A DNA stretch of 64,000 nt from Hygrocybe punicea (Eukaryota; Basidiomycota; Agaricomycetes; Agaricales; Hygrophoraceae), in contig OY744470.1 of NCBI GenBank assembly GCA_963556145.1, positions 310,001 to 374,000 of the forward strand, read 5' to 3'. Position 1 is the first letter of the stretch; each line of letters starts with the position of its first letter. The notes under the pieces were generated by a model. It was not told the DNA's origin. It worked only from the letters and a program-made list of their open reading frames with translations, and searched no databases. Shown one piece after another: positions 1 to 51,424 of the stretch. Both the position numbers and the translations under genes were made by a program.

Positions 1-3000
1 GCTCTGCACCTTCTATCTCAGTGCAATCCATGCCATCTCCACCATCCATGAGACGAGTCATAACTTTTCTTCGACATTCTATATTGGTTTGTGCCCATTC
101 TCCAGCTGCTGCAATACATTGACGGTCCTCCCAGCCATCAACTGAACAGAATATGGTGTTGTTGCTGTGAAGCAAAAACACAAATGCGGGTTGGCCACTA
201 CGTCCTGCTCGTCCTGCACCTTGCTCGATGTTGATGGCACCAAAAGGTATTCCAATGAACAAAATGGCTTGGACATCCGGATGATCAATGCCATGCATAA
301 AGCCAGAGGTTGCCACCATCCACTGGTGATGTCCTTGATACCACGACTCTTGAAACTGCGCCTTCAGGTCAGATGGCATCTGGGAGTGAGATTTGCAGTC
401 TCCAAAATGTTTAGCAATTTCGTTGACAGTTGGGATGTCAATGCAGAAGATGATACCACGCGATTGAGAGGTGAAGGTGGTTTGTTGCAAATATGAAGCC
501 AGGTCAATGGCTATTTGGTTCACTGGTTTCATTTGGTTGTTGATGTGCAAGACATGGTATCTGATGTTTGGACGTGTGGTGGGGGCCCTGATGAACTGTG
601 TCGACGAAGGCATGCATGTTTCCTCCAACAAAAGTTCTTCATGAGTCACTGGCAATGTGGCTGTGAGGAAGATTTTCATCACGGGGTAGAAAGCAAGCTC
701 TTTGACTCGAGCAAAGTCTCCGCGATACATCACATCGGTGAAGATCTTATGAGCTTCATCAAACACCCATCGAACAATCTTTCCTTCTTTTTGGCGATAC
801 CATCTGGAGATTTAATTCAATATGCAACGATGTCATTACTGGCTTCCTGAGTGGACTTACTCTTTGAAACCCAATGAGGTCACTGATTCCATGGCCAGAT
901 ACACCACACGCGCATCGCCTATCTGACGATGGGCGGACGTCCATTGACAGGTAGGTATTCCATATGCCTTGGTTTTACGAATCATATCCAGCAGCAGCGC
1001 CTTGTTTGGAATGACCACCAGAGTGATGAGATTTGTTTCAAGCAAGGCTGGAAGTAAAAAGACCATGCTTTTGCCACCACCAGTTGGTAAAATACCCACA
1101 AAACTTTTCTCTCTTGACAGTGAAAGTTCAACCATCTGTCGTTGTTGTTCTGTTAGGAAAGTGGCATCTGGCTTGTCTGGAAAGATTTGCTGCAGCAGAC
1201 GCAATGCTACATCATCCACAGGTTGATGATTTGGATTGATGTCCAATGGCTGATCCAAGGCATAGATGTCATCAAAGTTATCAACGTGTCCTGAGCTTGT
1301 TTCATTGCTTTGAGGTATCGGAGGTGGTTCCAATATGACTTGTTGGTTATTGTGGACTGGAGCAACCAACGCATTTTGTCTCTGCATGAACTCTGCAATG
1401 CCTGCAGCAACACCGATTTGAATCTGCTGCTCCAGTTCCATTTTCATCTGGGTGACAGAAGTTGTGATGACTCCTGTCAGTTGCTCCACTAGCCGCCCCA
1501 AGTCCACAGTCGTTGGCGATGGTGAGGTGGAGTTAATGGTGGTTGATAATGATCTTGGTGTTTGAAAGCTTTCACGGATTTTTCTGCGCTGACGTAGAGG
1601 CAAAAGTGGGACGCCGTTGGGATAAAATCGAGTGAGACGCCACCACCATTCAGAGGCATGACCAAATCGAAGCATGAGGTCACTTGAGACACCAGGAAGT
1701 AAACCACACTCTATGGCATAATTGTTACGACGTGCCATTGTAGAATGGCCAGTCTGTTCTGCCAAGACGTCAACCTCGTCTTCTTCATAAATTTCATATT
1801 CTGAACCCAGGTAGACTTTTGCAATCAGCACGACCAGCTGCCGGTATGGCCGAATTGTTAGAGATGTGCCAAAGTATGTCTCTGACACAGACTGCAAAGT
1901 GGAGGAGAATTGTGACTCAGTCATGCGCTTGCCAAAATGCATGAAAAAGTATTCGTGATAGAGCACCGCAACTTCTTCTCCCCACAGTTTGCGTGCCAAA
2001 TCGACTTCCAGCTGACGAATGATGAGGAGGTAGAAATCCACTAGTTCTTGCAGTTCTGGAGGTAGCTTGCTTGGGATGAAGACCTCTCTGCGAATCTGGT
2101 TTTTGTATTTGACACGACGAGTTACAAGCCAGTCTGCACCATGGTTGCGAAAGAATGTCCGTGGACGAGTTGAGTTGCGTATTTTGGAATCCATTAGCTC
2201 TGATATTCTGGAAGGCTGTCCAGGAAGGGTGTGGCATAGAACCGCTATGTGGCCATTAATCCTGGTTGTCTTTTCCATGATGCGAAGCATGGAACCCGGC
2301 TTGAAAATGAGGCCATCCTTGCCCTTGGTGCAAAGATCAATGGATGAATCATTCATTAATATCTGTATGAGGGCTCTGTCCTTGACAAATTTGCCATTGT
2401 TGAGCCATCCATAACCACGAGTACGTTCCGTCATGTCGTCTGGAATGATGTCTGGAATATTGACGGTAATGCAACTGTTGTTGCAAAGGTTGGTGACATC
2501 TTCCTTGACATCAGAAAATAGCATCCTGAGACCAATGATCCAGCGCTCCACCTCCATGGTCTTGTCCTTGTATGTCACGATCGTCCCATCCTCATTTACA
2601 GTAGCGGTTGGAGGGCGAGTGTTGGCATATGATAATGATGAGGCAAACCGCTGATAGTCCACAACTAAGTTGTATGGAGAGAGAACGCCTGGACTTAGAT
2701 TCTGCATGCAAAAATACTCAAGGGACCTGAATTATTTGTTACTCGACTATTAGAAGATCACTTCAAGTCATCACTCACTTGTATGCATTGTTTTCAAATT
2801 GTGGAGCTGACAGAATGCCTTGATACAATGTGCTCCCTCGGCAAATATACTTCCAGATTGAAAATGGCTTTGTTAACTCGTGAGCATCCTGGAAATTGCC
2901 ATCAGGAGTCATGTTCCCAATCGCCAGGTAGCACTCCAAGACTTCCAACCACTTGCTGTACTCTCCTTCTTGTTGTTGCTGCATGGACAAAAATGGGTAT

Positions 3001-4788
3001 ATGAACTGATGCAGAATGGTGACTGCTTTGTCGTCTTGACTTGGATCGTCCAATAACTTCAAGAGCTTTCTGCCGATGACACGAGTGCCCTGAGATATGG
3101 GGAAGGAATAGTTGGAGGGATGAGGATCCAAAGTTAACAATACTGCTTGAGCTAATGCATGCAGCGGTTGACCATAACGATAGAGAGTCTCATCATCGCT
3201 GTGGGGTTGCCAGTGCTTGCAATTTTGCGTGACTCTGTGATCAAACACAAGTTGAAACATATTAGAATTCTTTGTTACAAACAAGTGTGATTTGTGGAGG
3301 TAACATACCGAGGGCATTCCATGAGCAGACATCTCATGGCAACTGTGGAATTTATAGCCTTTGCTCGAATGTCTTTCAAGTAGTCGGTAACAATGTCGCC
3401 CAGATGACCCAGTCCTTTTTTTAAGATACGAGTCGGTAGCGTGACGAGAGATAAGAGGTGACCCCGTGTACGATAATCCTGGCTGTAGTCTTGTAGATGG
3501 ATGTGCCATTGTGTTAGTTGAAGCATAGGAGGGACTTCATGGGCATGAGCAGGTGCAGTTGCTGGGAACACAGGAAAGTTGGAGACTTCATCTCGCATGT
3601 ATATCGTAAACATGTCATCAGATGAAAGTTCGCTGAGCAAAGGATTGACTTCAAAGTAGCATTCTCCCACAGGCCTGAAAAATGTTTGCAAAGTGCCCAA
3701 GTGATGACGGTATCCAGGAAGTATCGTCAAGTCTTTGTGAGTCTTGTACCAGTGATTGTCAAAGGATTTCTTTTTGGGTGCACAGAAAGTGCAGTGATTG
3801 CAACAGAAGCCATCTGTGACCTGATCTAAAAGCTCAATAGGAGGGCCTCCTGGTGGAGGCTTTGTGACCTCATGATTATCTGTAATGCCCAGATCTTCCA
3901 CAATTTCTCCAAAGGCTAATATCTGTGGGTTGGTTAATTGAATGCCATGATGCCGAATGTGAGTGATTGTGGCACTAGGAAGTTGAGCGATGCCACAAAG
4001 ACAAATGAGCTTTTTGAAATGGATGTGGAATCGAACTCCCATAAATGTGAAGATGTCATTGGTGGTCAAATATGACTTGGAACCATCCAGGTGATGTGGA
4101 AAGGCAGTTACTGGAAATGTCATTAAAATGCTTGGCACTCCATGACTCAGATATCACATATACTGACTGGTCAAGCTGTCCTCAATTGCAGAGGGTTTGT
4201 CAATTTGAATCTCTTTAGATGCAACCACGTTAGCTTAGTTGACATGCTCAGGAGAATGCCTACCAGTTGAGTCAATCTCCATTTCAGATTGGTGTTCAGT
4301 GATATTCCTGACATCTGAACCACTTCTAGATGGGCCTGCTAGATCTGAGGATGGCTTGAAATAAGGATGGTGACGCAAGATTGTATGATGATGATGATGA
4401 TGCTTGACAACGTCGTCCTTGGGGGCAGAGGAACTTGCACCTGGTTCATTGTAAGGAGCAGATTGTGTTGGCAAGCAACCATTCCAAGGTGATGGCGACA
4501 AAGTGGAATGTTGGTCGTTGAGGTGAATTTTGAATTTACGATAGTCATGACCTAGCCATGAGCAGATGGCAATAGGACACTGTATCGGATCAACAGGACT
4601 CTCTCGGAGACCTGTCCAAGTAACTCCTAAGAAACACCAGTAAGTATGTTTCAAGTTGACTTAAATGTTGGCAATAGAGCACCATTAATTTTGCAAGGAT
4701 TATCAATTCGGTGTTTTTGGAGGATGTGACTTGGCAATGCATTTTTATGTGTTGAAAGAGATTGGTGGCAAATGGAGCATTTGTTCAT
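1..4788 (-). CDS. Telomere-linked-helicase-like fusion (zinc fingers + tyrosine-recombinase-like + RecQ helicase), copy A, 3' part outside window
   Basis: This is the first array copy; its C-terminal part lies beyond position 1. Exons on the minus strand are 4788-4683, 4626-4264, 4137-3309, 3234-2779, 2726-861 and 803 onward. Splice sites fit by phase; the 126-nt second intron is the least certain. The start ATG at 4788 precedes a C2H2 finger (CSIC...HILQKH). A second C2H2 (CPIAIC), a His6 run and an OrsD-like Cys/His region (ICLC, CCNHC) follow. Exon 5 carries a tyrosine-recombinase-like domain (about 2220-1718: RISEL, RPYR, GHS, Tyr) and then Walker A (LPTGGGKS); exon 6 begins the DEAH box region. 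Copy A has Lys where B, C and D have Glu in the recombinase hairpin (VKYK/ENQ). If the second junction is wrong, exons 1-2 could instead be a separate small zinc-finger gene ending at 4235. Confidence 0.85.
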
Positions 4789-5228
4789 CTTGTGATGCAA
4801 GTGTGAAGAGTTTGTATAACTAAGAAAATTTTGACTGAGATGATGGTGGTTGAAGGTCAAGATGTAATTGTGGCTAAGACCAAATAATGAATAACAGATG
4901 TAGCCACACAAACAGGTCACATGACAACACAGCCACATATACCAATGCAGACAATGCTAAGATTTTCTTCTGGCCTTGTACATGACTGATTTTGACATAT
5001 TAAGGTAATCAGTGTGGGTAGTTCTAATTTGAATGGCTAAGTAGTAGCCCTAAGTACTGATTCAAGATTATGAAGCTCTGAGAATGATGGTAGAAATTCC
5101 CCTAACTTCTTTAATGAACTGAGGAATCCTAATTTGTTTCAGTATAGAAGTGATGGAAGTTTGTAATGTTTCTGCGAGGAATTAATGTACTCTATGGGTA
5201 TGATCTGTGATGATGGGGGCAATGGCTT
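4789..5228. other. AT-rich intergenic / 5' flank of helicase copy A
   Basis: No coding signal was found. It lies between the helicase start codon and the 144-bp minisatellite, so it should hold the helicase promoter. The matching stretches at 30143-30582 and 48909-49348 are near-identical. Confidence 0.5.
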
Positions 5229-6150
5229 GAGGGAACAAGCTAAAACACTTGGCCTCCTCACCCAAAATGCCCGCTTACAAAGATACCCCGTGCGATTCGT
5301 CAATTCTTTGCTACCTGCCAGCAAACCCCGTGCGATTTGGTCAATAGATGCCAAAGCATCTCTGGAAAGCTTGGGGGAACAATCTAAAACACTTGGCCTC
5401 CTCACCCAAACTGCCCGCTTACAAAGATACCCCGTGCGATTCGTCAATTCTTTGCTACCTGCCAGCAAACCCCGTGCGATTTGGTCAATAGATGCCAAAG
5501 CATCTCTGGAAAGCTTGGGGGAACAATCTAAAACACTTGGCCTTCACACCCAAACTGCCCGCTTACAAAGATACCCCGTGCGATTCGTCAATTCTTTGCT
5601 ACCTGCCAGCAAACCCCGTGCGATTTGGTCAATAGATGCCAAAGCATCTCTGGAAAGCTTGGGGGAACAATCTAAAACACTTGGCCTCCTCACCCAAACT
5701 GCCCGCTTACAAAGATACCCCGTGCGATTCGTCAATTCTTTGCTACCTGCCAGCAAACCCCGTGCGATTTGGTCAATAGATGCCAAAGCATCTCTGGAAA
5801 GCTTGGGGGAACAATCTAAAACACTTGGCCTTCACACCCAAACTGCCCGCTTACAAAGATACCCCGTGCGATTCGTCAATTCTTTGCTACCTGCCAGCAA
5901 ACCCCGTGCGATTTGGTCAATAGATGCCAAAGCATCTCTGGAAAGCTTGGGGGAACAATCTAAAACACTTGGCCTCCTCACCCAAACTGCCCGCTTACAA
6001 AGATACCCCGTGCGATTCGTCAATTCTTTGCTACCTGCCAGCAAACCCCGTGCGATTTGGTCAATAGATGCCAAAGCATCTCTGGAAAGCTTGGGGGAAC
6101 AATCTAAAACACTTGGCCTCCTCACCCAAATTGCCCGCTTACAAAGATAC
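5229..6150. repeat. 144-bp minisatellite, copy A (about 6 units)
   Basis: Tandem 144-bp units have the landmark CCCCGTGCGATTCG at 5286, 5430, 5574, 5718, 5862 and 6006. Each unit holds the 12-mer CCCCGTGCGATT twice, 40 bp apart. Units come in two flavours, differing at CCTCCTCACC versus CCTTCACACC. Because 144 is divisible by 3 the array reads open in several frames on both strands; this is a length effect and not evidence of a protein. Confidence 0.93.
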
Positions 6151-6299
6151 CCCCCCTGGGGTACGGGGAAGCAACCCACTGCCAACACACCCTGTGCGAT
6201 TTGATGAGTACATGACACGCTCCAAATCGCACGGGGTGGGGATAGACGGGGTGAACCTTTGCCCTACACCCCCCCTAGGGCAGGGTGGAGAGGTGTTAG
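6151..6299. mobile_element. Constant right terminus of the array element, copy A
   Basis: This 149-bp segment is identical at 31073-31221, 50703-50851 and 51276-51424 and always ends in GTGTTAG, after which the sequences diverge. It contains an inverted pair GTGCGATTTG (6194-6203) / CAAATCGCAC (6223-6232). The second arm is part of a 15-bp inverted copy of the minisatellite motif CCCCGTGCGATTTGG. Nearer the end is a hairpin, TGCCCTA (6260-6266) / TAGGGCA (6276-6282), with a 9-nt C-rich loop, 17 nt from the terminus. It behaves as a fixed element end. Confidence 0.8.
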
Positions 6300-9285
6300 T
6301 TCTGCTGTGCGGTGTTTCATCCGATGCTAACCAGTATTTCTTGCTGTGTGCTACTGGCCGTGAATTGACGTTCCCCTGCGAGACACCGAGTCGAGACACC
6401 TAAAGTTGCTAACCCTTAGTTCCCGGCACGGAACGGGTGCAAATACACCATGGAAATTACGCGTTAGAAATGGCCATAGGATCCAAGTAGTCTGCCATCC
6501 AGTCACGGTCGTGTCGTATGGATCGCATTCGTAACTTTCACGGGGACGGTAAAGACACGGCTGGCGTAGATGAATGGAACGGTTCTAAAAATCACTCCTC
6601 GACCACAATGCTTCAATCTCATCGGCGTAGCTGTTCTCATCGTTCCAATTTACATGGTCCCTGCCTGTGACTTGGTCTTGTGCCGACTCGGTGATTTCAC
6701 CATCTCCGTGACCCATTACACTCCTTTCCATCAATCACGGTTTCTTACCAACTTCGAATCGTGGCAGGATCACTTGGGTTCGGTATGGCATGTGCATCTA
6801 AGTTCTGCTGTGCGGTGTTTCATCCGATGCTAACCAGTATTTCTTGCTGTGTGCTACTGGCCGTGAATTGATGTTCCCCTGCGAGACACCGAGTCGAGAC
6901 ACCTAAAGTTGCTAACCCTTAGTTCCCGGCACGGAACGGGTGCAAATACACCATGGAAATTACGCGTTAGAAATGGCCATAGGATCCAAGTAGTCTGCCA
7001 TCCAGTCACGGTCGTGTCGTATGGATCGCATTCGTAACTTTCACGGGGACGGTAAAGACACGGCTGGCGTAGATGAATGGAACGGTTCTAAAAATCACTC
7101 CTCGACCACAATGCTTCAATCTCATCGGCGTAGCTGTTCTCATCGTTCCAATTTACATGGTCCCTGCCTGTGACTTGGTCTTGTGCTGACTCGGTGATTT
7201 CACCATCTCCGTGACCCATTACACTCCTTTCCATCAATCACGGTTTCTTACCAACTTCGAATCGTGGCAGGATCACTTGGGTTCGGTATGGCACGTGCAT
7301 CTAAGTTCTGCTGTGCGGTGTTTCATCCGATGCTAACCAGTATTTCTTGCTGTGTGCTACTGGCCGTGAATTGACGTTCCCCTGCGAGACACCGAGTCGA
7401 GACACCTAAAGTTGCTAACCCTTAGTTCCCGGCACGGAACGGGTGCAAATACACCATGGAAATTACGCGTTAGAAATGGCCATAGGATCCAAGTAGTCTG
7501 CCATCCAGTCACGGTCGTGTCGTATGGATCGCATTCGTAACTTTCACGGGGACGGTAAAGACACGGCTGGCGTAGATGAATGGAACGGTTCTAAAAATCA
7601 CTCCTCGACCACAATGCTTCAATCTCATCGGCGTAGCTGTTCTCATCGTTCCAATTTACATGGTCCCTGCCTGTGACTTGGTCTTGTGCCGACTCGGTGA
7701 TTTCACCATCTCCGTGACCCATTACACTCCTTTCCATCAATCACGGTTTCTTACCAACTTCGAATCGTGGCAGGATCACTTGGGTTCGGTATGGCACGTG
7801 CATCTAAGTTCTGCTGTGCGGTGTTTCATCCGATGCTAACCAGTATTTCTTGCTGTGTGCTACTGGCCGTGAATTGATGTTCCCCTGCGAGACACCGAGT
7901 CGAGACACCTAAAGTTGCTAACCCTTAGTTCCCGGCACGGAACGGGTGCAAATACACCATGGAAATTACGCGTTAGAAATGGCCATAGGATCCAAGTAGT
8001 CTGCCATCCAGTCACGGTCGTGTCGTATGGATCGCATTCGTAACTTTCACGGGGACGGTAAAGACACGGCTGGCGTAGATGAATGGAACGGTTCTAAAAA
8101 TCACTCCTCGACCACAATGCTTCAATCTCATCGGCGTAGCTGTTCTCATCGTTCCAATTTACATGGTCCCTGCCTGTGACTTGGTCTTGTGCTGACTCGG
8201 TGATTTCACCATCTCCGTGACCCATTACACTCCTTTCCATCAATCACGGTTTCTTACCAACTTCGAATCGTGGCAGGATCACTTGGGTTCGGTATGGCAC
8301 GTGCATCTAAGTTCTGCTGTGCGGTGTTTCATCCGATGCTAACCAGTATTTCTTGCTGTGTGCTACTGGCCGTGAATTGACGTTCCCCTGCGAGACACCG
8401 AGTCGAGACACCTAAAGTTGCTAACCCTTAGTTCCCGGCACGGAACGGGTGCAAATACACCATGGAAATTACGCGTTAGAAATGGCCATAGGATCCAAGT
8501 AGTCTGCCATCCAGTCACGGTCGTGTCGTATGGATCGCATTCGTAACTTTCACGGGGACGGTAAAGACACGGCTGGCGTAGATGAATGGAACGGTTCTAA
8601 AAATCACTCCTCGACCACAATGCTTCAATCTCATCGGCGTAGCTGTTCTCATCGTTCCAATTTACATGGTCCCTGCCTGTGACTTGGTCTTGTGCCGACT
8701 CGGTGATTTCACCATCTCCGTGACCCATTACACTCCTTTCCATCAATCACGGTTTCTTACCAACTTCGAATCGTGGCAGGATCACTTGGGTTCGGTATGG
8801 CACGTGCATCTAAGTTCTGCTGTGCGGTGTTTCATCCGATGCTAACCAGTATTTCTTGCTGTGTGCTACTGGCCGTGAATTGACGTTCCCCTGCGAGACA
8901 CCGAGTCGAGACACCTAAAGTTGCTAACCCTTAGTTCCCGGCACGGAACGGGTGCAAATACACCATGGAAATTACGCGTTAGAAATGGCCATAGGATCCA
9001 AGTAGTCTGCCATCCAGTCACGGTCGTGTCGTATGGATCGCATTCGTAACTTTCACGGGGACGGTAAAGACACGGCTGGCGTAGATGAATGGAACGGTTC
9101 TAAAAATCACTCCTCGACCACAATGCTTCAATCTCATCGGCGTAGCTGTTCTCATCGTTCCAATTTACATGGTCCCTGCCTGTGACTTGGTCTTGTGCTG
9201 ACTCGGTGATTTCACCATCTCCGTGACCCATTACACTCCTTTCCATCAATCACGGTTTCTTACCAACTTCGAATCGTGGCAGGAT
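6300..9285. repeat. 503-bp satellite, first array (about 5.9 units)
   Basis: Near-identical 503-bp units run head to tail from the element terminus to the sequence GGCAGGAT, where they stop abruptly. Diagnostic bases alternate between neighbours (TGCCGACT / TGCTGACT and TTGACGTT / TTGATGTT), giving a 1,006-bp dimeric higher-order period. The 87-codon open frames inside alternate units are closed by a single base in the others, so they are not genes. Most units contain one CACGTG. Confidence 0.93.
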
Positions 9286-13495: not shown

Positions 13496-13598
13496 AATAA
13501 AATAGATGCCAACATAACATGTTTATAGTGCTAACAATATAAATTGTAACAGAGTAGATAGCTGACTACAGAGTGCTTCTACGTGTAGTCATTCGAAC

Positions 13599-16359: not shown

Positions 16360-16562
16360 CCGCGGGAAATTAGGACGCTTTACCCTCTTGTACCCATCTT
16401 TCCATGCTTCTGGGGTGTTCATTCATCTTCAAGGTGGTCCCATTTCACAGCAGGAGATACCCAGTGTCGAGAGAAACATTGGGGGAGACAAGACTTGTTG
16501 CGTGTACTTGTTGCGTGTTTTGTTTGGTCACGTCGCGTCACCTTTTCTGCGCTTGCTCCACA

Positions 16563-34200: not shown

Positions 34201-34379
34201 TCACTCCTCGACCACAATGCTTCAATCTCATCGGCGTAGCTGTTCTCATCGTTCCAATTTACATGGTCCCTGCCTGTGACTTGGTCTTGTGCTGACTCGG
34301 TGATTTCACCATCTCCGTGACCCATTACACTCCTTTCCATCAATCACGGTTTCTTACCAACTTCGAATCGTGGCAGGAT
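31222..34379. repeat. 503-bp satellite, second array (about 6.3 units)
   Basis: Same satellite and same right edge (GGCAGGAT) as 6300-9285. Its left edge lies at a different phase and the order of C/T variants differs from the first array, so the two arrays are not simple recent copies of each other across their full length. Confidence 0.92.
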
Positions 34380-37808: not shown

Positions 37809-38376
37809 GCATTGTGGCACTGATATTATTTGCATTTGCATTCTTGGTTTTAAAAGAACATGTCTTATGTGGTTAAATGGCTTTATCTGTGAATATTTCA
37901 AGTTGAAAAAAAAAAAAAGTCTTATGTTGTGAACAGATGTTATCTGAGAGCATTGGGATTATTTGAATGGTTAGTGGTCAATGAGAAAGTGGTAGACTGG
38001 ATTTATAGAATAGCAAAAGTTGCAAAAAAGTGAGAGAGATGTTATAAGTGGTATAACCTGAATCTGAATCTGTAATTCTCATAGGAGAAAAGTCCAAGAT
38101 ACAGATTGATAAAAATTATTAGAGTTGTATATATTTTATTTCTTAGAGGTTTTTACATATCAGTTTTGTACTGCAAGTAAATTAGTCACTGAAGCTTGTC
38201 ATTTTGTGAATCACAGGATTTCAATAATTAAATGTTAGTACTGGTAATAAAACTGACACCTAGGAATTTAGTAGTAGAAAACACATCTGGGAGTCAGAAA
38301 TTTAGATGGTTATAAAGTTACAAAAAAATTGACATGAGTGAGAGACCAGAAAAATTTAGTAAAAATGAGAGGGTAT
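37809..38376. other. AT-rich non-coding spacer
   Basis: Copy of 12715-13282; no gene seen. Confidence 0.5.
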
Positions 38377-38589
38377 AGCCAAGCAATCAGAATAACCATT
38401 CCCGAGGGAGACATCCAAAGGCTGAAGCCGGTAGTCCTTGGACTCCTTAAATATCAGCTTGCTGTCTCAGGGGCAGATACATAAATCCCTTGGGACCGAA
38501 AGTACCTGGCACAGTCTCGAACTCGGGAGAGAGTCACGTGACGGCCTCAATGCACTCCGTAGAGTGTTTAACCACTAAGCTATGTTGCC
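38377..38589 (-). mobile_element. tRNA-derived SINE-like element, second copy
   Basis: Same A box, B box and body as 13283-13495 at a fixed offset, so it was duplicated with the unit and is not an independent insertion. Confidence 0.6.
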
Positions 38590-38692
38590 AATAAAATAGA
38601 TGCCAACATAACATGTTTATAGTGCTAACAATATAAATTGTAACAGAGTAGATAGCTGACTACAGAGTGCTTCTACGTGTAGTCATTCGAAC

Positions 38693-41600
38693 CGTGGGTG
38701 GTCATTGTCGGGGTTCTGGCTGAAAAAAGCTGGGGGGGTTAGGAGACAAGTTGGCAGCGCAGATGATTGGGAGCTCGCACCCCTTCGTTTCCATCGATAA
38801 GGAGGTGCGGGGGGTTGATTCCGGCCGTGGGTGGTCGCTGTTGGCCGGGGGAAACAGCGGTTCTGGATAAAAAAAGTTGGGGGGGGGTGTTAGAGAAAAG
38901 TTGGCAGCGCAGATGATTGGGAGCTCGCACCCTTTCGTTTCCATCGATAACGAGGTGCGGGGGGTCCATTTAAGCCGTGGGTGGTTGCCGTTGGCCGGGG
39001 GAAACAGCGGATGTGGCTAAAAAAAGTTGGGGGGGGGTGTTAGAGAAAAGTTGGCAGCGCTGATGATTGGGAGCTCGCACCCTTTCGTTTCCATCGATAA
39101 GGAGTTGCGGGGGGTTGATTCCGGCCGTGGGTGGTCGCTGTTGGCCGGGGGAAACAGCGGTTCTGGATAAAAAAAGTTGGGGGGGGGTGTTAGAGAAAAG
39201 TTGGCAGCGCAGATGATTGGGAGCTCGCACCCTTTCGTTTCCATCGATAACGAGGTGCGGGGGGTCCATTTAAGCCGTGGGTGGTTGCCGTTGGCCGGGG
39301 GAAACAGCGGATGTGGCTAAAAAAAGTTGGGGGGGGGTGTTAGAGAAAAGTTGGCAGCGCTGATGATTGGGAGCTCGCACCCTTTCGTTTCCATCGATAA
39401 GGAGTTGCGGGGGGTTGATTCCGGCCGTGGGTGGTCGCTGTTGGCCGGGGGAAACAGCGGTTCTGGATAAAAAAAGTTGGGGGGGGGTGTTAGAGAAAAG
39501 TTGGCAGCGCTGATGATTGGGACGTCGCACCCCTTCGTTTCCATCGATAAGGAGTTGCGGGGGGTTGATTCCGGCCGTGGGTGGTCGCTGTTGGCCGGGG
39601 GAAACAGCGGTTCTGGATAAAAAAAGTTGGGGGGGGGTGTTAGAGAAAAGTTGGCAGCGCTGATGATTGGGACGTCGCACCCCTTCGTTTCCATCGATAA
39701 GGAGTTGCGGGGGGTTGATTCCGGCCGTGGGTGGTCGCTGTTGGCCGGGGGAAACAGCGGTTCTGGATAAAAAAAGTTGGGGGGGGGTGTTAGAGAAAAG
39801 TTGGCAGCGCTGATGATTGGGACGTCGCACCCCTTCGTTTCCATCGATAAGGAGTTGCGGGGGGTTGATTCCGGCCGTGGGTGGTCGCTGTTGGCCGGGG
39901 GAAACAGCGGTTCTGGATAAAAAAAGTTGGGGGGGGGTGTTAGAGAAAAGTTGGCAGCGCAGATGATTGGGAGCTCGCACCCTTTCGTTTCCATCGATAA
40001 GGAGTTGCGGGGGGTTGATTCCGGCCGTGGGTGGTCGCTGTTGGCCGGGGGAAAAAGCGGTTCTGGATAAAAAAAGTTGGGGGGGGGTGTTAGAGAAAAG
40101 TTGGCAGCGCAGATGATTGGGAGCTCGCACCCTTTCGTTTCCATCGATAACGAGGTGCGGGGGGTCCATTTAAGCCGTGGGTGGTTGCCGTTGGCCGGGG
40201 GAAACAGCGGTTCTGGATAAAAAAAGTTGGGGGGGGGTGTTAGAGAAAAGTTGGCAGCGCTGATGATTGGGAGCTCGCACCCTTTCGTTTCCATCGATAA
40301 GGAGTTGCGGGGGGTTGATTCCGGCCGTGGGTGGTCGCTGTTGGCCGGGGGAAACAGCGGTTCTGGATAAAAAAAGTTGGGGGGGGGTGTTAGAGAAAAG
40401 TTGGCAGCGCAGATGATTGGGAGCTCGCACCCTTTCGTTTCCATCGATAAGGAGTTGCGGGGGGTTGATTCCGGCCGTGGGTGGTCGCTGTTGGCCGGGG
40501 GAAAAAGCGGTTCTGGATAAAAAAAGTTGGGGGGGGGTGTTAGAGAAAAGTTGGCAGCGCAGATGATTGGGAGCTCGCACCCTTTCGTTTCCATCGATAA
40601 CGAGGTGCGGGGGGTCCATTTAAGCCGTGGGTGGTTGCCGTTGGCCGGGGGAAACAGCGGTTCTGGATAAAAAAAGTTGGGGGGGGGTGTTAGAGAAAAG
40701 TTGGCAGCGCTGATGATTGGGAGCTCGCACCCTTTCGTTTCCATCGATAAGGAGTTGCGGGGGGTTGATTCCGGCCGTGGGTGGTCGCTGTTGGCCGGGG
40801 GAAACAGCGGTTCTGGATAAAAAAAGTTGGGGGGGGGTGTTAGAGAAAAGTTGGCAGCGCTGATGATTGGGACGTCGCACCCCTTCGTTTCCATCGATAA
40901 GGAGTTGCGGGGGGTTGATTCCGGCCGTGGGTGGTCGCTGTTGGCCGGGGGAAACAGCGGTTCTGGATAAAAAAAGTTGGGGGGGGGTGTTAGAGAAAAG
41001 TTGGCAGCGCAGATGATTGGGAGCTCGCACCCCTTCGTTTCCATCGATAAGGAGTTGCGGGGGGTTGATTCCGGCCGTGGGTGGTCGCTGTTGGCCGGGG
41101 GAAACAGCGGTTCTGGATAAAAAAAGTTGGGGGGGGGTGTTAGAGAAAAGTTGGCAGCGCAGATGATTGGGAGCTCGCACCCTTTCGTTTCCATCGATAA
41201 GGAGTTGCGGGGGGTTGATTCCGGCCGTGGGTGGTCGCTGTTGGCCGGGGGAAAAAGCGGTTCTGGATAAAAAAAGTTGGGGGGGGGTGTTAGAGAAAAG
41301 TTGGCAGCGCAGATGATTGGGAGCTCGCACCCTTTCGTTTCCATCGATAACGAGGTGCGGGGGGTCCATTTAAGCCGTGGGTGGTTGCCGTTGGCCGGGG
41401 GAAACAGCGGATGTGGCTAAAAAAAGTTGGGGGGGGGTTAGAGAAAAGTTGGCAGCGTAGATGATTGGGAGCTCGCACCCTTTCGTTTCCATCGATAACG
41501 AGGTGCGGGGGGTCCTTTTAGGCCGTGGGTGGTCGCTGTTGGCCGGGGGAAACAGCGGTTCTGGATAAAAAAAGTTGGGGGGGGGTGTTAGAGAAAAGTT

Positions 41601-41753
41601 GGCAGCGCTGATGATTCGGACGTCGCACCCCTTCGTTTCCATCGATAAGGAGTTGCGGGGGGTCCATTTATGCCGTGGGTGGTTGCGGTTGGCCGGGGGA
41701 AACAGCGGATGTGGCTAAAAAAAGTTGGGGGGGGGGTTAGAGAAAAGTTGGCA
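38693..41753. repeat. 150-bp G-rich minisatellite, second array (about 20 units)
   Basis: Same unit as 13599-16359, about 300 bp longer (two more units), with a different interior order of variants; the outer units match. This indicates internal gain or loss of units while the flanks stayed identical. Confidence 0.92.
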
Positions 41754-41956
41754 CCGCGGGAAATTAGGACGCTTTACCCTCTTGTACCCATCTTTCCATG
41801 CTTCTGGGGTGTTCATTCATCTTCAAGGTGGTCCCATTTCACAGCAGGAGATACCCAGTGTCGAGAGAAACATTGGGGGAGACAAGACTTGTTGCGTGTA
41901 CTTGTTGCGTGTTTTGTTTGGTCACGTCGCGTCACCTTTTCTGCGCTTGCTCCACA

Positions 41957-43084
41957 ATGGCCCCTACTAAGTCCACTAAAGTAACTGCTGCTGCCCCCAA
42001 AAGGCTTGTTCACTCTTCCTTGGCTGCAGCTGTGAGTACTATTGTTCCTTTTGCTGCCCTATTTCACCTTCTTTGTTTAGATAAACAGCCAAAGATCTAC
42101 TTCTGGCTCCATCCCTGGCCCTGCATCCACCCCTGCTCCTGCTGCTGCTGTATTTGGCTTTGCTCCTTCCAGCCCTGCCTCCTCTCTCTCTCCCTCCAGG
42201 TCTCCCACCCCTGTCCCCTCCAAGCCTGGGGCTAAAAAGCTTGTTAGCTCCACCTCTGAGCTGGTCAAGTCTCTGAGATCTAGAAAGGTAAGTTGCTACC
42301 TCTACCCACTTCCGTCTCCTTTATTTTCAACACAAACTCATCACTCTCACTAGAATCTTGGAGCCAAAGCTGCTGCTGTCAAGCATTTGGCCAATATAGC
42401 CAAAGGTAAGAAGGCAGGTACAAGTCGTCATCCCCCCACGAAAAAGGGCGTTATCAAGATGTTGGAACATGAGATCATGTCCAATTCGCGTCAAGTATTT
42501 CTCAAATGGCCCGTCTCCGCTTCCCAGACGGATACGTTATGTTATGCTGCGACTTGTCTTGCAGGTATGTACTACTAAATTTTTTTGATGAACTATTACA
42601 ACCAATTACCTCACCCAGATAACAAGAAGCTTCTTGCAGGTTCTTATGTCCTGTCTCGCCGTCTTGGTTCGATGACTATCAAGGTCTGTTTTTATTTTTG
42701 TATACTATGTATAATATTTACTGATAGTAATTTTCATAGGATCGAATCACCTTTCGCGATGTCCACTATCATTTGGGCTGTGTCACGGTGCCACAATACA
42801 AGCGCTTCGCTGCCGACGACGGCTCTCTCAAAGCTAATGTCCATCTTCACGATACCCTTAATGCTGCTACCTTGGCTCTAATCAAGACCAAAATCACCGA
42901 TGCCCACGCAGCCGTTCTGCCTCTTCGTCCTGCTCCCACCGAGTTAGAGGTGGAGCAAAAGCGTGCCAAGGCCAAGGTAAGGCGCCTTCGTCGTTTGGCC
43001 AAGAAAAGTTCACAGATGGTGCATGGGTTCGATACATCTGATGGGGAAGGGAGTGGGGATGACTATGAGCCTGACAAAAACTAA
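41957..43084 (+). CDS. Basic protein of unknown function, third copy
   Basis: Five-exon copy at 25,394 bp from the first, with the same 300-residue frame and the same convergent arrangement with the next helicase gene. No differences were noticed in the coding exons. Confidence 0.78.
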
Positions 43085-43224
43085 CCACTCCTGTCAGATT
43101 TGTTGACCCATCAGTACTATTTTTGTATACCACCATGTCCATATTATACCATCACCAGTTGCCTTGCTCAAATTCATAAACATGCCAGATTGTTCATAAG
43201 CAAAGTAAAATGATATTTTCAAAT

Positions 43225-46200
43225 CTACATTCTGTTACGATGTAGCCATAACCATACAATCAACTCCAAGCCATTATAAAATGATCCAGGATTGGCCTGT
43301 TCCTTGGCCCACATGCCAAATTCCTGGATCCTCATTCCTCTTTTTAGACCAGGAAAGGCTTTTGTGGCCTCTGTAAATATAGCTGGATTGATAAAGACAA
43401 ACCAGCAAAGCACCGCAACAAAATCTTCAAATGGACATGCCACCGTCTTTTCAGGAGCAAAAACAGGATGTGTCGATGGCAAATATTTTCCCTGAGGCAA
43501 GCCACATTGCCAGCAATATTCGTACTTTTGAAAAGATCTGAAGTAGTTTTTCTTGAGATCGAACCATCGGATGGCGTTGTTGACAAAGACGTCTTCTGGA
43601 CCACGACAGCTGATGAAGTAGGTATGGTTTGGGGTCTTGACCACATCGCAACGTCCTTTCCATGCCCAACAAATGATGCACTTTCCATAGAGATATCTTG
43701 TCATGGCTCCAAGTTCTGCAGCCTTTGCCTTCCTGCTTTGCATATGTTGTGCATAAACAGCTGCATCTAGCTGCACGGCCATCGATGGTCGAACACTGGT
43801 TGGCAGAATGATTGTTGCAGGAGGAAGTACTTGGGGTGTAGGTTTTGTTACTGGTGCTGCAGAGCCTGTTGCGACTGGCAATGTTTGAGGTATGGGCTCA
43901 GTAGATGGACCTGAGGAGGATGAGACAACATTGGAGCTGAGTGGGGCTCCACACAATGATTCCATATCAATGTTCATGAGTGATGCGTCATCCCAACCTC
44001 CCAAGTCATAATCGTCCTCGATATCCATGGTATTTGATCGTGATATTTGAGGTGTGTCCTTGGCCATGAGTTTTCTGACTGCATGGAGAAGCTCCGTGTT
44101 TGGATCACAAAGGTCGCACTGCTCTGCACCTTCTATCTCAGTGCAATCCATGCCATCTCCACCATCCATGAGACGAGTCATAACTTTTCTTCGACATTCT
44201 ATATTGGTTTGTGCCCATTCTCCAGCTGCTGCAATACATTGACGGTCCTCCCAGCCATCAACTGAACAGAATATGGTGTTGTTGCTGTGAAGCAAAAACA
44301 CAAATGCGGGTTGGCCACTACGTCCTGCTCGTCCTGCACCTTGCTCGATGTTGATGGCACCAAAAGGTATTCCAATGAACAAAATGGCTTGGACATCCGG
44401 ATGATCAATGCCATGCATAAAGCCAGAGGTTGCCACCATCCACTGGTGATGTCCTTGATACCACGACTCTTGAAACTGCGCCTTCAGGTCAGATGGCATC
44501 TGGGAGTGAGATTTGCAGTCTCCAAAATGTTTAGCAATTTCGTTGACAGTTGGGATGTCAATGCAGAAGATGATACCACGCGATTGAGAGGTGAAGGTGG
44601 TTTGTTGCAAATATGAAGCCAGGTCAATGGCTATTTGGTTCACTGGTTTCATTTGGTTGTTGATGTGCAAGACATGGTATCTGATGTTTGGACGTGTGGT
44701 GGGGGCCCTGATGAACTGTGTCAACGAAGGCATGCATGTTTCCTCCAACAAAAGTTCTTCATGAGTCACTGGCAATGTGGCTGTGAGGAAGATTTTCATC
44801 ACGGGGTAGAAAGCAAGCTCTTTGACTCGAGCAAAGTCTCCGCGATACATCACATCGGTGAAGATCTTATGAGCTTCATCAAACACCCATCGAACAATCT
44901 TTCCTTCTTTTTGGCGATACCATCTGGAGATTTAATTCAATATGCAACGATGTCATTACTGGCTTCCTGAGTGGACTTACTCTTTGAAACCCAATGAGGT
45001 CACTGATTCCATGGCCAGATACACCACACGCGCATCGCCTATCTGACGATGGGCGGACGTCCATTGACAGGTAGGTATTCCATATGCCTTGGTTTTACGA
45101 ATCATATCCAGCAGCAGCGCCTTGTTTGGAATGACCACCAGAGTGATGAGATTTGTTTCAAGCAAGGCTGGAAGTAAAAAGACCATGCTTTTGCCACCAC
45201 CAGTTGGTAAAATACCCACAAAACTTTTCTCTCTTGACAGTGAAAGTTCAACCATCTGTCGTTGTTGTTCTGTTAGGAAAGTGGCATCTGGCTTGTCTGG
45301 AAAGATTTGCTGCAGCAGACGCAATGCTACATCATCCACAGGTTGATGATTTGGATTGATGTCCAATGGCTGATCCAAGGCATAGATGTCATCAAAGTTA
45401 TCAACGTGTCCTGAGCTTGTTTCATTGCTTTGAGGTATCGGAGGTGGTTCCAATATGACTTGTTGGTTATTGTGGACTGGAGCAACCAACGCATTTTGTC
45501 TCTGCATGAACTCTGCAATGCCTGCAGCAACACCGATTTGAATCTGCTGCTCCAGTTCCATTTTCATCTGGGTGACAGAAGTTGTGATGACTCCTGTCAG
45601 TTGCTCCACTAGCCGCCCCAAGTCCACAGTCGTTGGCGATGGTGAGGTGGAGTTAATGGTGGTTGATAATGATCTTGGTGTTTGAAAGCTTTCACGGATT
45701 TTTCTGCGCTGACGTAGAGGCAAAAGTGGGACGCCGTTGGGATAAAATCGAGTGAGACGCCACCACCATTCAGAGGCATGACCAAATCGAAGCATGAGGT
45801 CACTTGAGACACCAGGAAGTAAACCACACTCTATGGCATAATTGTTACGACGTGCCATTGTAGAATGGCCAGTCTGTTCTGCCAAGACGTCAACCTCGTC
45901 TTCTTCATAAATTTCATATTCTGAACCCAGGTAGACTTTTGCAATCAGCACGACCAGCTGCCGGTATGGCCGAATTGTTAGAGATGTGCCAAAGTATGTC
46001 TCTGACACAGACTGCAAAGTGGAGGAGAATTGTGACTCAGTCATGCGCTTGCCAAAATGCATGAAAAAGTATTCGTGATAGAGCACCGCAACTTCTTCTC
46101 CCCACAGTTTGCGTGCCAAATCGACTTCCAGCTGACGAATGATGAGGAGGTAGAAATCCACTAGTTCTTGCAGTTCTGGAGGTAGCTTGCTTGGGATGAA

Positions 46201-48908
46201 GACCTCTCTGCGAATCTGGTTTTCGTATTTGACACGACGAGTTACAAGCCAGTCTGCACCATGGTTGCGAAAGAATGTCCGTGGACGAGTTGAGTTGCGT
46301 ATTTTGGAATCCATTAGCTCTGATATTCTGGAAGGCTGTCCAGGAAGGGTGTGGCATAGAACCGCTATGTGGCCATTAATCCTGGTTGTCTTTTCCATGA
46401 TGCGAAGCATGGAACCCGGCTTGAAAATGAGGCCATCCTTGCCCTTGGTGCAAAGATCAATGGATGAATCATTCATTAATATCTGTATGAGGGCTCTGTC
46501 CTTGACAAATTTGCCATTGTTGAGCCATCCATAACCACGAGTACGTTCCGTCATGTCGTCTGGAATGATGTCTGGAATATTGACGGTAATGCAACTGTTG
46601 TTGCAAAGGTTGGTGACATCTTCCTTGACATCAGAAAATAGCATCCTGAGACCAATGATCCAGCGCTCCACCTCCATGGTCTTGTCCTTGTATGTCACGA
46701 TCGTCCCATCCTCATTTACAGTAGCGGTTGGAGGGCGAGTGTTGGCATATGATAATGATGAGGCAAACCGCTGATAGTCCACAACTAAGTTGTATGGAGA
46801 GAGAACGCCTGGACTTAGATTCTGCATGCAAAAATACTCAAGGGACCTGAATTATTTGTTACTCGACTATTAGAAGATCACTTCAAGTCATCACTCACTT
46901 GTATGCATTGTTTTCAAATTGTGGAGCTGACAGAATGCCTTGATACAATGTGCTCCCTCGGCAAATATACTTCCAGATTGAAAATGGCTTTGTTAACTCG
47001 TGAGCATCCTGGAAATTGCCATCAGGAGTCATGTTCCCAATCGCCAGGTAGCACTCCAAGACTTCCAACCACTTGCTGTACTCTCCTTCTTGTTGTTGCT
47101 GCATGGACAAAAATGGGTATATGAACTGATGCAGAATGGTGACTGCTTTGTCGTCTTGACTTGGATCGTCCAATAACTTCAAGAGCTTTCTGCCGATGAC
47201 ACGAGTGCCCTGAGATATGGGGAAGGAATAGTTGGAGGGATGAGGATCCAAAGTTAACAATACTGCTTGAGCTAATGCATGCAGCGGTTGACCATAACGA
47301 TAGAGAGTCTCATCATCGCTGTGGGGTTGCCAGTGCTTGCAATTTTGCGTGACTCTGTGATCAAACACAAGTTGAAACATATTAGAATTCTTTGTTACAA
47401 ACAAGTGTGATTTGTGGAGGTAACATACCGAGGGCATTCCATGAGCAGACATCTCATGGCAACTGTGGAATTTATAGCCTTTGCTCGAATGTCTTTCAAG
47501 TAGTCGGTAACAATGTCGCCCAGATGACCCAGTCCTTTTTTTAAGATACGAGTCGGTAGCGTGACGAGAGATAAGAGGTGACCCCGTGTACGATAATCCT
47601 GGCTGTAGTCTTGTAGATGGATGTGCCATTGTGTTAGTTGAAGCATAGGAGGGACTTCATGGGCATGAGCAGGTGCAGTTGCTGGGAACACAGGAAAGTT
47701 GGAGACTTCATCTCGCATGTATATCGTAAACATGTCATCAGATGAAAGTTCGCTGAGCAAAGGATTGACTTCAAAGTAGCATTCTCCCACAGGCCTGAAA
47801 AATGTTTGCAAAGTGCCCAAGTGATGACGGTATCCAGGAAGTATCGTCAAGTCTTTGTGAGTCTTGTACCAGTGATTGTCAAAGGATTTCTTTTTGGGTG
47901 CACAGAAAGTGCAGTGATTGCAACAGAAGCCATCTGTGACCTGATCTAAAAGCTCAATAGGAGGGCCTCCTGGTGGAGGCTTTGTGACCTCATGATTATC
48001 TGTAATGCCCAGATCTTCCACAATTTCTCCAAAGGCTAATATCTGTGGGTTGGTTAATTGAATGCCATGATGCCGAATGTGAGTGATTGTGGCACTAGGA
48101 AGTTGAGCGATGCCACAAAGACAAATGAGCTTTTTGAAATGGATGTGGAATCGAACTCCCATAAATGTGAAGATGTCATTGGTGGTCAAATATGACTTGG
48201 AACCATCCAGGTGATGTGGAAAGGCAGTTACTGGAAATGTCATTAAAATGCTTGGCACTCCATGACTCAGATATCACATATACTGACTGGTCAAGCTGTC
48301 CTCAATTGCAGAGGGTTTGTCAATTTGAATCTCTTTAGATGCAACCACGTTAGCTTAGTTGACATGCTCAGGAGAATGCCTACCAGTTGAGTCAATCTCC
48401 ATTTCAGATTGGTGTTCAGTGATATTCCTGACATCTGAACCACTTCTAGATGGGCCTGCTAGATCTGAGGATGGCTTGAAATAAGGATGGTGACGCAAGA
48501 TTGTATGATGATGATGATGATGCTTGACAACGTCGTCCTTGGGGGCAGAGGAACTTGCACCTGGTTCATTGTAAGGAGCAGATTGTGTTGGCAAGCAACC
48601 ATTCCAAGGTGATGGCGACAAAGTGGAATGTTGGTTGTTGAGGTGAATTTTGAATTTACGATAGTCATGACCTAGCCATGAGCAGATGGCAATAGGACAC
48701 TGTATCGGATCAACGGGACTCTCTCGGAGACCTGTCCAAGTAACTCCTAAGAAACACCAGTAAGTATGTTTCAAGTTGACTTAAATGTTGGCAATAGAGC
48801 ACCATTAATTTTGCAAGGATTATCAATTCGGTGTTTTTGGAGGATGTGACTTGGCAATGCATTTTTATGTGTTGAAAGAGATTGGTGGCAAATGGAGCAT
48901 TTGTTCAT
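43225..48908 (-). CDS. Zinc-finger + tyrosine-recombinase-like + RecQ helicase fusion, copy D, complete
   Basis: Six-exon copy with the same splice sites as copy C (offset 18,766 bp): exons 48908-48803, 48746-48384, 48257-47429, 47354-46899, 46846-44981 and 44923-43225. Motifs are intact: Walker A, DEAH, QGAGRAGR and the recombinase-like Arg/Lys/RxxR/His/Tyr set (about 46340-45838). It carries a Ser-to-Leu change shortly after motif III (CMPSS to CMPSL) relative to B and C. It is the last copy before single-copy DNA. Confidence 0.88.
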
Positions 48909-49348
48909 CTTGTGATGCAAGTGTGAAGAGTTTGTATAACTAAGAAAATTTTGACTGAGATGATGGTGGTTGAAGGTCAAGATGTAATTGTGGCTAAGAC
49001 CAAATAATGAATAACAGATGTAGCCACACAAACAGGTCACATGACAACACAGCCACATATACCAATGCAGACAATGCTAAGATTTTCTTCTGGCCTTGTA
49101 CATGACTGATTTTGACATATTAAGGTAATCAGTGTGGGTAGTTCTAATTTGAATGGCTAAGTAGTAGCCCTAAGTACTGATTCAAGATTATGAAGCTCTG
49201 AGAATGATGGTAGAAATTCCCCTAACTTCTTTAATGAACTGAGGAATCCTAATTTGTTTCAGTATAGAAGTGATGGAAGTTTGTAATGTTTCTGCGAGGA
49301 ATTAATGTACTCTATGGGTATGATCTGTGATGATGGGGGCAATGGCTT

Positions 49349-50702
49349 GAGGGAACAAGCTAAAACACTTGGCCTCCTCACCCAAAATGCCCGCTTACAA
49401 AGATACCCCGTGCGATTCGTCAATTCTTTGCTACCTGCCAGCAAACCCCGTGCGATTTGGTCAATAGATGCCAAAGCATCTCTGGAAAGCTTGGGGGAAC
49501 AATCTAAAACACTTGGCCTCCTCACCCAAACTGCCCGCTTACAAAGATACCCCGTGCGATTCGTCAATTCTTTGCTACCTGCCAGCAAACCTCGTGCGAT
49601 TTGGTCAATAGATGCCAAAGCATCTCTGGAAAGCTTGGGGGAACAATCTAAAACACTTGGCCTTCACACCCAAACTGCCCGCTTACAAAGATACCCCGTG
49701 CGATTCGTCAATTCTTTGCTACCTGCCAGCAAACCCCGTGCGATTTGGTCAATAGATGCCAAAGCATCTCTGGAAAGCTTGGGGGAACAATCTAAAACAC
49801 TTGGCCTTCACACCCAAACTGCCCGCTTACAAAGATACCCCGTGCGATTCGTCAATTCTTTGCTACCTGCCAGCAAACCCCGTGCGATTTGGTCAATAGA
49901 TGCCAAAGCATCTCTGGAAAGCTTGGGGGAACAATCTAAAACACTTGGCCTCCTCACCCAAACTGCCCGCTTACAAAGATACCCCGTGCGATTCGTCAAT
50001 TCTTTGCTACCTGCCAGCAAACCCCGTGCGATTTGGTCAATAGATGCCAAAGCATCTCTGGAAAGCTTGGGGGAACAATCTAAAACACTTGGCCTTCACA
50101 CCCAAACTGCCCGCTTACAAAGATACCCCGTGCGATTCGTCAATTCTTTGCTACCTGCCAGCAAACCCCGTGCGATTTGGTCAATAGATGCCAAAGCATC
50201 TCTGGAAAGCTTGGGGGAACAATCTAAAACACTTGGCCTCCTCACCCAAACTGCCCGCTTACAAAGATACCCCGTGCGATTCGTCAATTCTTTGCTACCT
50301 GCCAGCAAACCCCGTGCGATTTGGTCAATAGATGCCAAAGCATCTCTGGAAAGCTTGGGGGAACAATCTAAAACACTTGGCCTTCACACCCAAACTGCCC
50401 GCTTACAAAGATACCCCGTGCGATTCGTCAATTCTTTGCTACCTGCCAGCAAACCCCGTGCGATTTGGTCAATAGATGCCAAAGCATCTCTGGAAAGCTT
50501 GGGGGAACAATCTAAAACACTTGGCCTCCTCACCCAAACTGCCCGCTTACAAAGATACCCCGTGCGATTCGTCAATTCTTTGCTACCTGCCAGCAAACCC
50601 CGTGCGATTTGGTCAATAGATGCCAAAGCATCTCTGGAAAGCTTGGGGGAACAATCTAAAACACTTGGCCTCCTCACCCAAATTGCCCGCTTACAAAGAT
50701 AC
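49349..50702. repeat. 144-bp minisatellite, copy D (about 9 units)
   Basis: Nine full periods (landmark near 49404, then every 144 bp to 50556), mixing the CCTCCTC and CCTTCAC unit types. Compare 6 in copy A and 3 in copy C. Confidence 0.92.
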
Positions 50703-50851
50703 CCCCCCTGGGGTACGGGGAAGCAACCCACTGCCAACACACCCTGTGCGATTTGATGAGTACATGACACGCTCCAAATCGCACGGGGTGGGGATAGACG
50801 GGGTGAACCTTTGCCCTACACCCCCCCTAGGGCAGGGTGGAGAGGTGTTAG
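50703..50851. mobile_element. Constant right terminus of the array element, copy D
   Basis: Identical terminal segment, ending GTGTTAG at 50851, then continuing as ATTCGTCAATTC, the interior of a 144-bp unit. One G is shared as possible microhomology. Confidence 0.8.
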
Positions 50852-51424
50852 ATTCGTCAATTCTTTGCTACCTGCCAGCAAACCCCGTGCGATTTGGTCA
50901 ATAGATGCCAAAGCATCTCTGGAAAGCTTGGGGGAACAATCTAAAACACTTGGCCTTCACACCCAAACTGCCCGCTTACAAAGATACCCCGTGCGATTCG
51001 TCAATTCTTTGCTACCTGCCAGCAAACCCCGTGCGATTTGGTCAATAGATGCCAAAGCATCTCTGGAAAGCTTGGGGGAACAATCTAAAACACTTGGCCT
51101 CCTCACCCAAACTGCCCGCTTACAAAGATACCCCGTGCGATTCGTCAATTCTTTGCTACCTGCCAGCAAACCCCGTGCGATTTGGTCAATAGATGCCAAA
51201 GCATCTCTGGAAAGCTTGGGGGAACAATCTAAAACACTTGGCCTCCTCACCCAAATTGCCCGCTTACAAAGATACCCCCCCTGGGGTACGGGGAAGCAAC
51301 CCACTGCCAACACACCCTGTGCGATTTGATGAGTACATGACACGCTCCAAATCGCACGGGGTGGGGATAGACGGGGTGAACCTTTGCCCTACACCCCCCC
51401 TAGGGCAGGGTGGAGAGGTGTTAG
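50852..51424. mobile_element. Severely truncated array element (573 bp): 3 partial 144-bp units plus terminus
   Basis: Starts inside a 144-bp unit, runs through about three units and ends with the full constant terminus (51276-51424). It lacks the satellite, genes and 150-bp array, so only the right end of an element is present. It abuts single-copy DNA and is the innermost, hence in an end-capture model the oldest, member of the array. Confidence 0.78.

Follow-up and report, generated by a model that had tools for sequence, protein, structure and literature searches.

To our knowledge, the only elements so far described that repair chromosome ends through a single fixed terminus are retroelements. 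HeT-A, TART and TAHRE of Drosophila are non-LTR retroelements whose RNA 3' end lies inward and whose joins carry oligo(A), rotifer terminons are giant telomeric Athena Penelope-like elements with a Penelope-like reverse transcriptase (RT), and MoTeRs are fungal chromosome-end elements that share the traits of FoTeRs. FoTeRs carry an RT open reading frame and several TAACCC repeats at their 3' end (PMC12857005, available sections). Regions of telomere-linked helicases (TLH) were described in 2020 in Agaricus bisporus var. burnettii, the available sections of that report giving no domain beyond the helicase core (PMC7473861), and its reference list points to such regions in Ustilago, Magnaporthe and Metarhizium. 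Exploring 64,000 nucleotides of the mushroom Hygrocybe punicea (contig OY744470.1, positions 310,001 to 374,000; hereafter the window, C36:310001-374000 of a 92.2-Mb genome assembly of 42 contigs), we found a head-to-tail array of a unit, U, which is probably one of at least five end-attaching families that make up much of the sampled subtelomeres and that would cap truncated chromosome ends. C-numbers denote contigs, L-numbers the genome stretches compared, and the suffixes L and R the left and right arms.

The architecture of these elements recalls that of HeT-A, TART and TAHRE in its mixed head-to-tail end arrays, fixed inner end, variable outer truncation, single polarity and attachment to broken ends, and that of rotifer terminons in its large multi-gene units on chromosome ends in one orientation. 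With FoTeRs it shares a fungal host, specificity for chromosome ends, an excess of truncated over full copies and a position beside telomere-linked helicases (PMC12857005, available sections), and with fungal TLH regions it shares subtelomeric RecQ-like genes that are present or absent between close relatives and partly truncated (PMC7473861, available sections).

The sequences that identify the U array in the window are as follows.

6151-6299, + strand: constant terminus of U, copy A, ending GTGTTAG and joined to phase 1 of a 503-bp satellite
31073-31221, + strand: constant terminus, copy C, which may be the inner end of copy B (see the N gap below); joined to phase 2 of the satellite, 331 bp on
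50703-50851, + strand: constant terminus, copy D; abuts copy E in the middle of its 144-bp repeat
51276-51424, + strand: constant terminus, copy E, of which 573 bp remain; runs into proximal chromosomal DNA
51385-51407, + strand: subterminal palindrome TGCCCTA-9-TAGGGCA of copy E, outer base 18 bases from the constant end; identical in the other window copies
51425-53857: proximal repeated sequence, which starts at 51425 here and is capped by U

The original prediction, made from the window alone, of one 149-bp terminus with the same last base and four different flanks held for 4/4 copies: each closes with ...GAGGTGTTAG and then runs into differing DNA, and the 163 bases preceding the last seven are identical in all four. 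Flanks 1 and 2 both belong to the 503-bp satellite and differ in phase by 331 bp (about 330 bp in the original prediction), flank 3 falls midway in the 144-bp repeat and flank 4 is non-array DNA. The last of these had been taken for single-copy DNA, which proved wrong, as 51425-52700 has 12 further genome matches, full-length or partial, at 72-99% identity.

Comparison of chromosome arms revealed other families, and we mapped five by their constant ends, namely U, U2 (...GATTATTAG), E2 (...GGTATAAT), E3 (...CATATATAA) and S2 (...TATATATAAT). At 66 of the 67 joins read, the element ended at the fixed base of its family (U 14/14, U2 3/3, E2 24/24, E3 21/21, S2 4/5), 40 added joins in 180-bp pieces lying at the same base throughout (E2 20/20, E3 17/17, old U 3/3), and the 66 joins carried 62 different flanks (11 for the 14 U joins, 24 for the 24 of E2, 20 for the 21 of E3). 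Chance was ruled out, since all 14 U joins share their end base in front of 11 different flanks. We then counted shared bases, using joins for which the compared stretches contain a homologue of the flank (at least 90% over 80 bases) and taking the closest one; in 33/33 joins with a close intact homologue the lost target bases matched the last 1-5 bases of the element. The first 28 distinct joins (U 7, E2 12, E3 9), of which L079 and L083 may be one event, shared a mean of 2.5 bases versus 0.33 by chance, and all five further joins (U2 3, S2 2) shared 1-5 bases with the lost target; two S2 joins and the remaining joins of U, E2 and E3 had no target homologue among the compared stretches, and four duplicate joins (C2L 13273, L099, L108, C7 18686) were left out or not entered. 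The order of families was mixed: cut U carries E2 (C36, C2R) and E3 (C7R), cut E2 carries U (C39R, C7R), and U2 is attached both to cut U and to cut E2. The single 18.7-kb element first proposed kept its end-attaching architecture and gave way to a head-to-tail mixture of at least five families.

The position and polarity of the families were analyzed on the 13 chromosome-size contigs (5.0-9.5 Mb, 26 arms), scoring 16/16 candidates for U, 24/24 for U2, the best 40 of 73 for E2, the best 40 of 46 for E3 and the best 40 of 41 for S2. Copies of 97% identity or more were considered young, and counts refer to chromosome contigs, without small contigs (one young E2 on C20). The U terminus has 16 genome matches, 11 of them at 99-100% identity (four on C36L, three on C2L, one each on C2R and C39R, two on C7R). 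Mapping the terminus genome-wide had been proposed as a check, with the same end base, many flanks, a position near contig ends and one orientation as the expected outcome, and this outcome was obtained for 11/11 young U copies on five arms, all with the fixed end inward, and across the five families for 81/88 young copies on 23 of the 26 arms (U 11/11, U2 6/6, E2 33/39, E3 24/25, S2 7/7). Young copies lay within 150 kb of a contig end in 62/88 cases, 58 of these 62 inward, while such end zones make up 4.3% of chromosome-contig sequence. With arms as units, 20/23 were majority inward, 2 outward and 1 tied (sign test, p = 1.2e-4). Older U copies on chromosome contigs were inward in 1/4 cases, and older copies (<97%) of U and E3 together in just 6/19, so that the polarity shows in young copies.

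One proximal sequence was cut at three points on three arms and capped by U, E2 and E3, respectively. On C7R it begins at the equivalent of 52071, capped by E2 with 3 shared bases before it, and on C40R at the equivalent of 52645, capped by E3 with 5 shared bases before it. Out of 51425-52700, C7 has only positions 644-1276 and C40 only positions 1216-1276, shared bases included, and a genome search with 13/13 candidates scored found no other match to the outer remainder on either contig. Because the remainder of the cut target is missing on both arms checked (C7, C40), sequence comparison points to capping, not insertion, at these arms. The joins and this test together bear out a fixed inner end, a lost variable outer end and attachment to truncated sequence, as had been predicted. 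Interstitial copies with two fixed ends, named there as the counter-case, were not what we saw: one defined end was found, and the capped target on C7 and C40 lacked its outer part.

Examination of the last 70 bases revealed that an inverted repeat begins at base 18 from the fixed end in four of the five families, with a 7-bp stem in U (loop 9), U2 (loop 5) and E2 (loop 0) and a 5-bp stem in E3 (loop 0), which carries an additional 6-bp inverted repeat at 37. Shuffled sequences reached the base-18 palindrome in 0.03% (U), 0.03% (U2), 0.2% (E2) and 1.1% (E3) of cases; U, E2 and E3 had already revealed this position when U2 was inspected, so U2 alone serves as a prospective test.

The sequence shows that, at many chromosome ends, an element is attached through its single fixed terminus to truncated sequence, that it has lost a variable amount of its own outer side, and that a further element, from its own family or a different one, sits on the resulting cut end; repeated rounds yield head-to-tail mosaics with fixed ends inward. 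Capping is the probable explanation of this pattern. The fixed base, the 1-5 bases of terminal pairing and the outer loss argue for copying or joining that starts at the very end of a template. We suggest that, once a chromosome has eroded, its free 3' end would pair with the terminal bases of a template that itself ends 3' at the fixed terminus (the hairpin plus 17 bases), that a polymerase would extend the paired end outward, and that the far side would be trimmed by incomplete copying or later erosion.

Several points weigh against this model. Its template and polymerase are inferred components only. The capped proximal sequence is itself a repeat with 13 matches, which makes its cut copies weaker evidence than single-copy DNA would be, and related arms may share joins by descent. 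The fifth S2 join (C36:268,609) falls 4 bases short of the fixed end, and the maps contain further short matches, two young ones of E2 that end at base 149 and two more old ones of S2 that end at 146 of 150. Some more distant repeat copies of the targets share 0 bases. S2 has no palindrome at base 18, and a universal end hairpin was rejected on this ground. Seven of the 88 young copies point outward (four on C33, two on C40, one on C6), and the C36L arrays lie 0.29-0.36 and 0.75-0.87 Mb within the contig; these internal arrays may be chromosome ends that became buried, additions made later, or products of scaffold misjoining, with 200-N gaps present at C36:277301 and at window position 22904.

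The anatomy of U was determined with TRF and self-comparison. One unit reads, in order, 503-bp satellite, putative + strand gene, 150-bp repeats, small + frame, large - gene, 144-bp repeats and 149-bp terminus.

31222-50851, + strand: copy D, the most complete unit of the window, 19,630 bp
31222-34379: 503-bp satellite, outer side of copy D
34803-37808, + strand: putative gene in several open frames, reads toward the fixed end
38712-41771: 150-bp tandem repeats, copy D (copy B: 13618-16377)
42024-43084, + strand: possible small gene; three frames scanned, no Pfam family
43225-49076, - strand: telomere-linked helicase gene, copy D, reads outward
48771-49076, - strand: zinc-finger-like frame of the helicase gene, by eye
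47395-48258, - strand: OrsD match in the helicase gene
44977-46827, - strand: tyrosine-recombinase-like domain and RecQ N-terminal part of the helicase gene
43225-44886, - strand: RecQ C-terminal part of the helicase gene
49345-50705: 144-bp tandem repeats, copy D (others 5225-6153, 30579-31075, 50852-51278)
6300-9285: 503-bp satellite, copy B
22904-23103: assembly gap, 200 N, inside the array

The predicted unit length of 18.7 kb applies to the first two copies (offset 18,726) and not to copy D. The 6.4 kb on either side of the N gap are 99.86% identical, suggesting that the pieces flanking it (B and C) may be one unit falsely doubled, through an unmerged overlap or a collapsed repeat; the four U joins hold regardless. 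The 503-bp satellite of copy D resembles a 765-bp satellite adjoining the C2 telomere (75% over about 260 bp).

Judged from its translation, the large gene of U encodes a telomere-linked RecQ helicase with a tyrosine-recombinase-like domain, and this RecQ-like family is concentrated at chromosome ends, as in fungal TLH regions. The catalytic set of tyrosine recombinases comprises R, K, HxxR, H/W and Y. The U domain has a Cre/Xer-like fold, the predicted structure being of low model confidence at 306-329, and its R167, K200, R289, H321 and Y330 are invariant in 34 sequences (33 of 45 relatives and the window), the first H of HxxR being mostly R; the protein is a putative recombinase. Relatives at about 25% identity mostly keep the catalytic residues, with changes of R to W (L123), R to H (L122, P0045) and H to Y (L121), and five short proteins were added by a further search for more remote helicase relatives. 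In U, U2 and E2 the main gene points outward from the fixed end, while the E3 genes read toward it and the E3 sense gene keeps an intron-like gap. No tyrosine-recombinase-helicase gene was found in the E2 and E3 frames scanned, suggesting that the machinery is shared in trans or is not the element's own; structure comparison of the E2/E3 protein, for which a Rep fold like that of Rep_trans rolling-circle initiators was considered, gave no reliable relative. Scanning of U, E2 and E3 frames revealed no recognisable RT, and the U frames scanned contained neither an RT nor a gag family, leaving room for an RT acting in trans. Among the best 150 of 594 RVT_1 candidates a few lay near contig ends and no telomere-specific RT family was evident, though such a family may still exist. 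The gene at 34803-37808 has a DGGHR motif that resembles ParB proteins, but its identity as ParB was rejected, as sequence searches of Pfam, NCBIfam, PHROGs and PDB gave no support for it.

The likeness to HeT-A/TART or terminons claimed in the original prediction is accordingly supported for architecture and not for membership. In contrast to HeT-A and TART, the mushroom elements have no recognised RT, their main genes point mostly outward, and telomere repeats are present as well; in U, neither sense retroelement genes reading toward the fixed end, in the frames scanned, nor oligo(A) at the joins was found. Unlike terminons, U has no Penelope-like RT in the frames scanned, and unlike MoTeRs and FoTeRs, the elements carry no telomere repeats at the fixed end, which abuts other DNA directly at the 66 joins. 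From known TLH regions they differ in the tyrosine-recombinase-like domain, the fixed terminus and the capping pattern. In Helitrons and IS200/IS605 elements a hairpin lies subterminally, a short and constant distance from one defined end. The subterminal palindrome here resembles theirs, but no second defined end was seen, no Helitron Rep domain was found in the U frames scanned, and the ends are TTAG, TAAT or ATAA rather than CTRR; the two-ended insertion of Cryptons and other tyrosine-recombinase transposons likewise differs from the one end seen here. In the literature surveyed, with most subscription journals outside it, the available text announced neither a tyrosine-recombinase domain in a telomere-linked helicase nor such capping. 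Several mushroom families thus appear to cap ends without a recognised RT and alongside telomere repeats, four of the five sharing one end design.

As for the enzymatic step, RNA and DNA routes stand at about equal odds, and we lean slightly to a DNA template, since three of the four gene-bearing families have their main gene antisense to the would-be RNA and E3 retains its intron-like gap. On the DNA route, which we put forward tentatively, the tyrosine-recombinase-RecQ protein of U and U2 (in E2 and E3, their large protein) would recognise the hairpin end, free a strand and join it to the 3' overhang of the chromosome, with an outcome like that of single-strand transposition. A candidate for the joining enzyme is the recombinase-helicase of U and U2, with the hairpin, the 17 bases and the end as its predicted substrate, and this would give the puzzling fungal subtelomeric RecQ genes a role, as recombinase-helicases of end-attaching elements. 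It is conceivable, if a bold extension, that there is a DNA-based class of chromosome-end elements whose tyrosine-recombinase-RecQ proteins and partners use a shared end code (17 bases and hairpin) to join one strand to eroded 3' ends, TLH genes being transposition genes and not genes of host telomere maintenance.

On the RNA route, a possibility of similar weight, the fixed terminus would be the 3' end of a transcript, the chromosome 3' end would prime reverse transcription and the hairpin would be the recognition site of the RT. The fixed end, terminal pairing, outer truncation and near-end hairpin fit such end-primed reverse transcription, and the E3 genes are oriented toward the fixed end as in retroelements. 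The scanned U, E2 and E3 frames, which did not include a full-length E2 outer end, contained no recognised RT, the main gene of U, U2 and E2 would be antisense to the proposed RNA, the E3 sense gene has kept its intron-like gap, and A-runs at the 66 joins never exceed 5. It is equally tentative to suppose that the RT is supplied in trans by telomerase, a Penelope-like element or a LINE, for which HeT-A offers a parallel.

Rather unlikely is host repair alone, by microhomology-mediated break-induced replication or end joining, with the elements as passive subtelomeric repeats like yeast Y'. Microhomology of 1-5 bp is typical of such repair, and identical duplicated joins (C7 3166 = C7 18686; L107 = L108) reveal ordinary subtelomere copying, but repair by itself fails to explain why, across five families whose ends are unlike one another, 66/67 joins start at the same base. 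Unequal crossing-over of a tandem unit, or assembly error, for which the N gap and the 98.6-99.9% identity of the long U copies in the array might speak, is highly improbable: the variety of flanks, both at the four window joins and at those of E2 (24 for 24 joins) and E3 (20 for 21) on many contigs, refutes it as the main cause.

TTAGGG is the usual mushroom telomere repeat, and arrays of it had been expected outside the outermost unit; (TTAGGG)x4 is absent from the whole genome. The telomere is instead an irregular TTAGG/TTAG mixture, seen at 4 of the 26 chromosome-contig ends (C2L, C34L, C7R, C6R).

L019:1-145, L061:1-151, L068:470-600, L111:473-600: TTAGG/TTAG telomere repeats

Eight other arms end in an 80-bp satellite containing GTTAGTTAG (L030, L033, L035, L066, L109, L112, L114, L116), perhaps a telomere-like satellite, two end in a 58-bp satellite (L062, L018), and C33R, C40L and C39R end in E2 or U sequence. 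U and U2 themselves end in one TTAG, in reverse telomere orientation. The predicted direction of the chromosome end, towards position 1, agrees with the single polarity, but the array lies 316-361 kb within the contig and no telomere repeat was found to its left in the C36 stretches 1-10, 100-110, 200-210 and 250-310 kb.

Among the other families, U2 is an apparent second helicase unit of about 17.75 kb that is repeated twice between telomere and U at C2:18718-41709 (L019, L020, L118, L126). It has its own fixed end: the interval C2:23800-24100, picked from the 17,754-bp spacing of two helicase matches, held a fixed end at 23,955. A sixth family, E4, was dropped because the best 40 of its 86 candidates form a 1456-bp tandem satellite on C3, which lies in two opposed arrays near the right end of that contig (C3:8142110-8198672). 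At C36:754-875 kb, deep in the contig, fixed ends of U2, E2 and E3 form a further cluster with the same orientation, which may represent a chromosome end that was later buried, or a misjoined scaffold. An exonuclease (RNase_T) frame (L021:5599-6627) lies immediately interior to the innermost U join of C2L, and a 1049-aa open frame with DUF6570 and Helitron_like_N occurs among the C36 subtelomeric elements (L011:1284-4430). C39:5-225 kb carries several RVT_1 matches in very long open frames. Within the window, 55696-56534 is an 839-bp sequence that is 94% its own inverted repeat and recurs in L015 (97%), a palindromic dispersed element.

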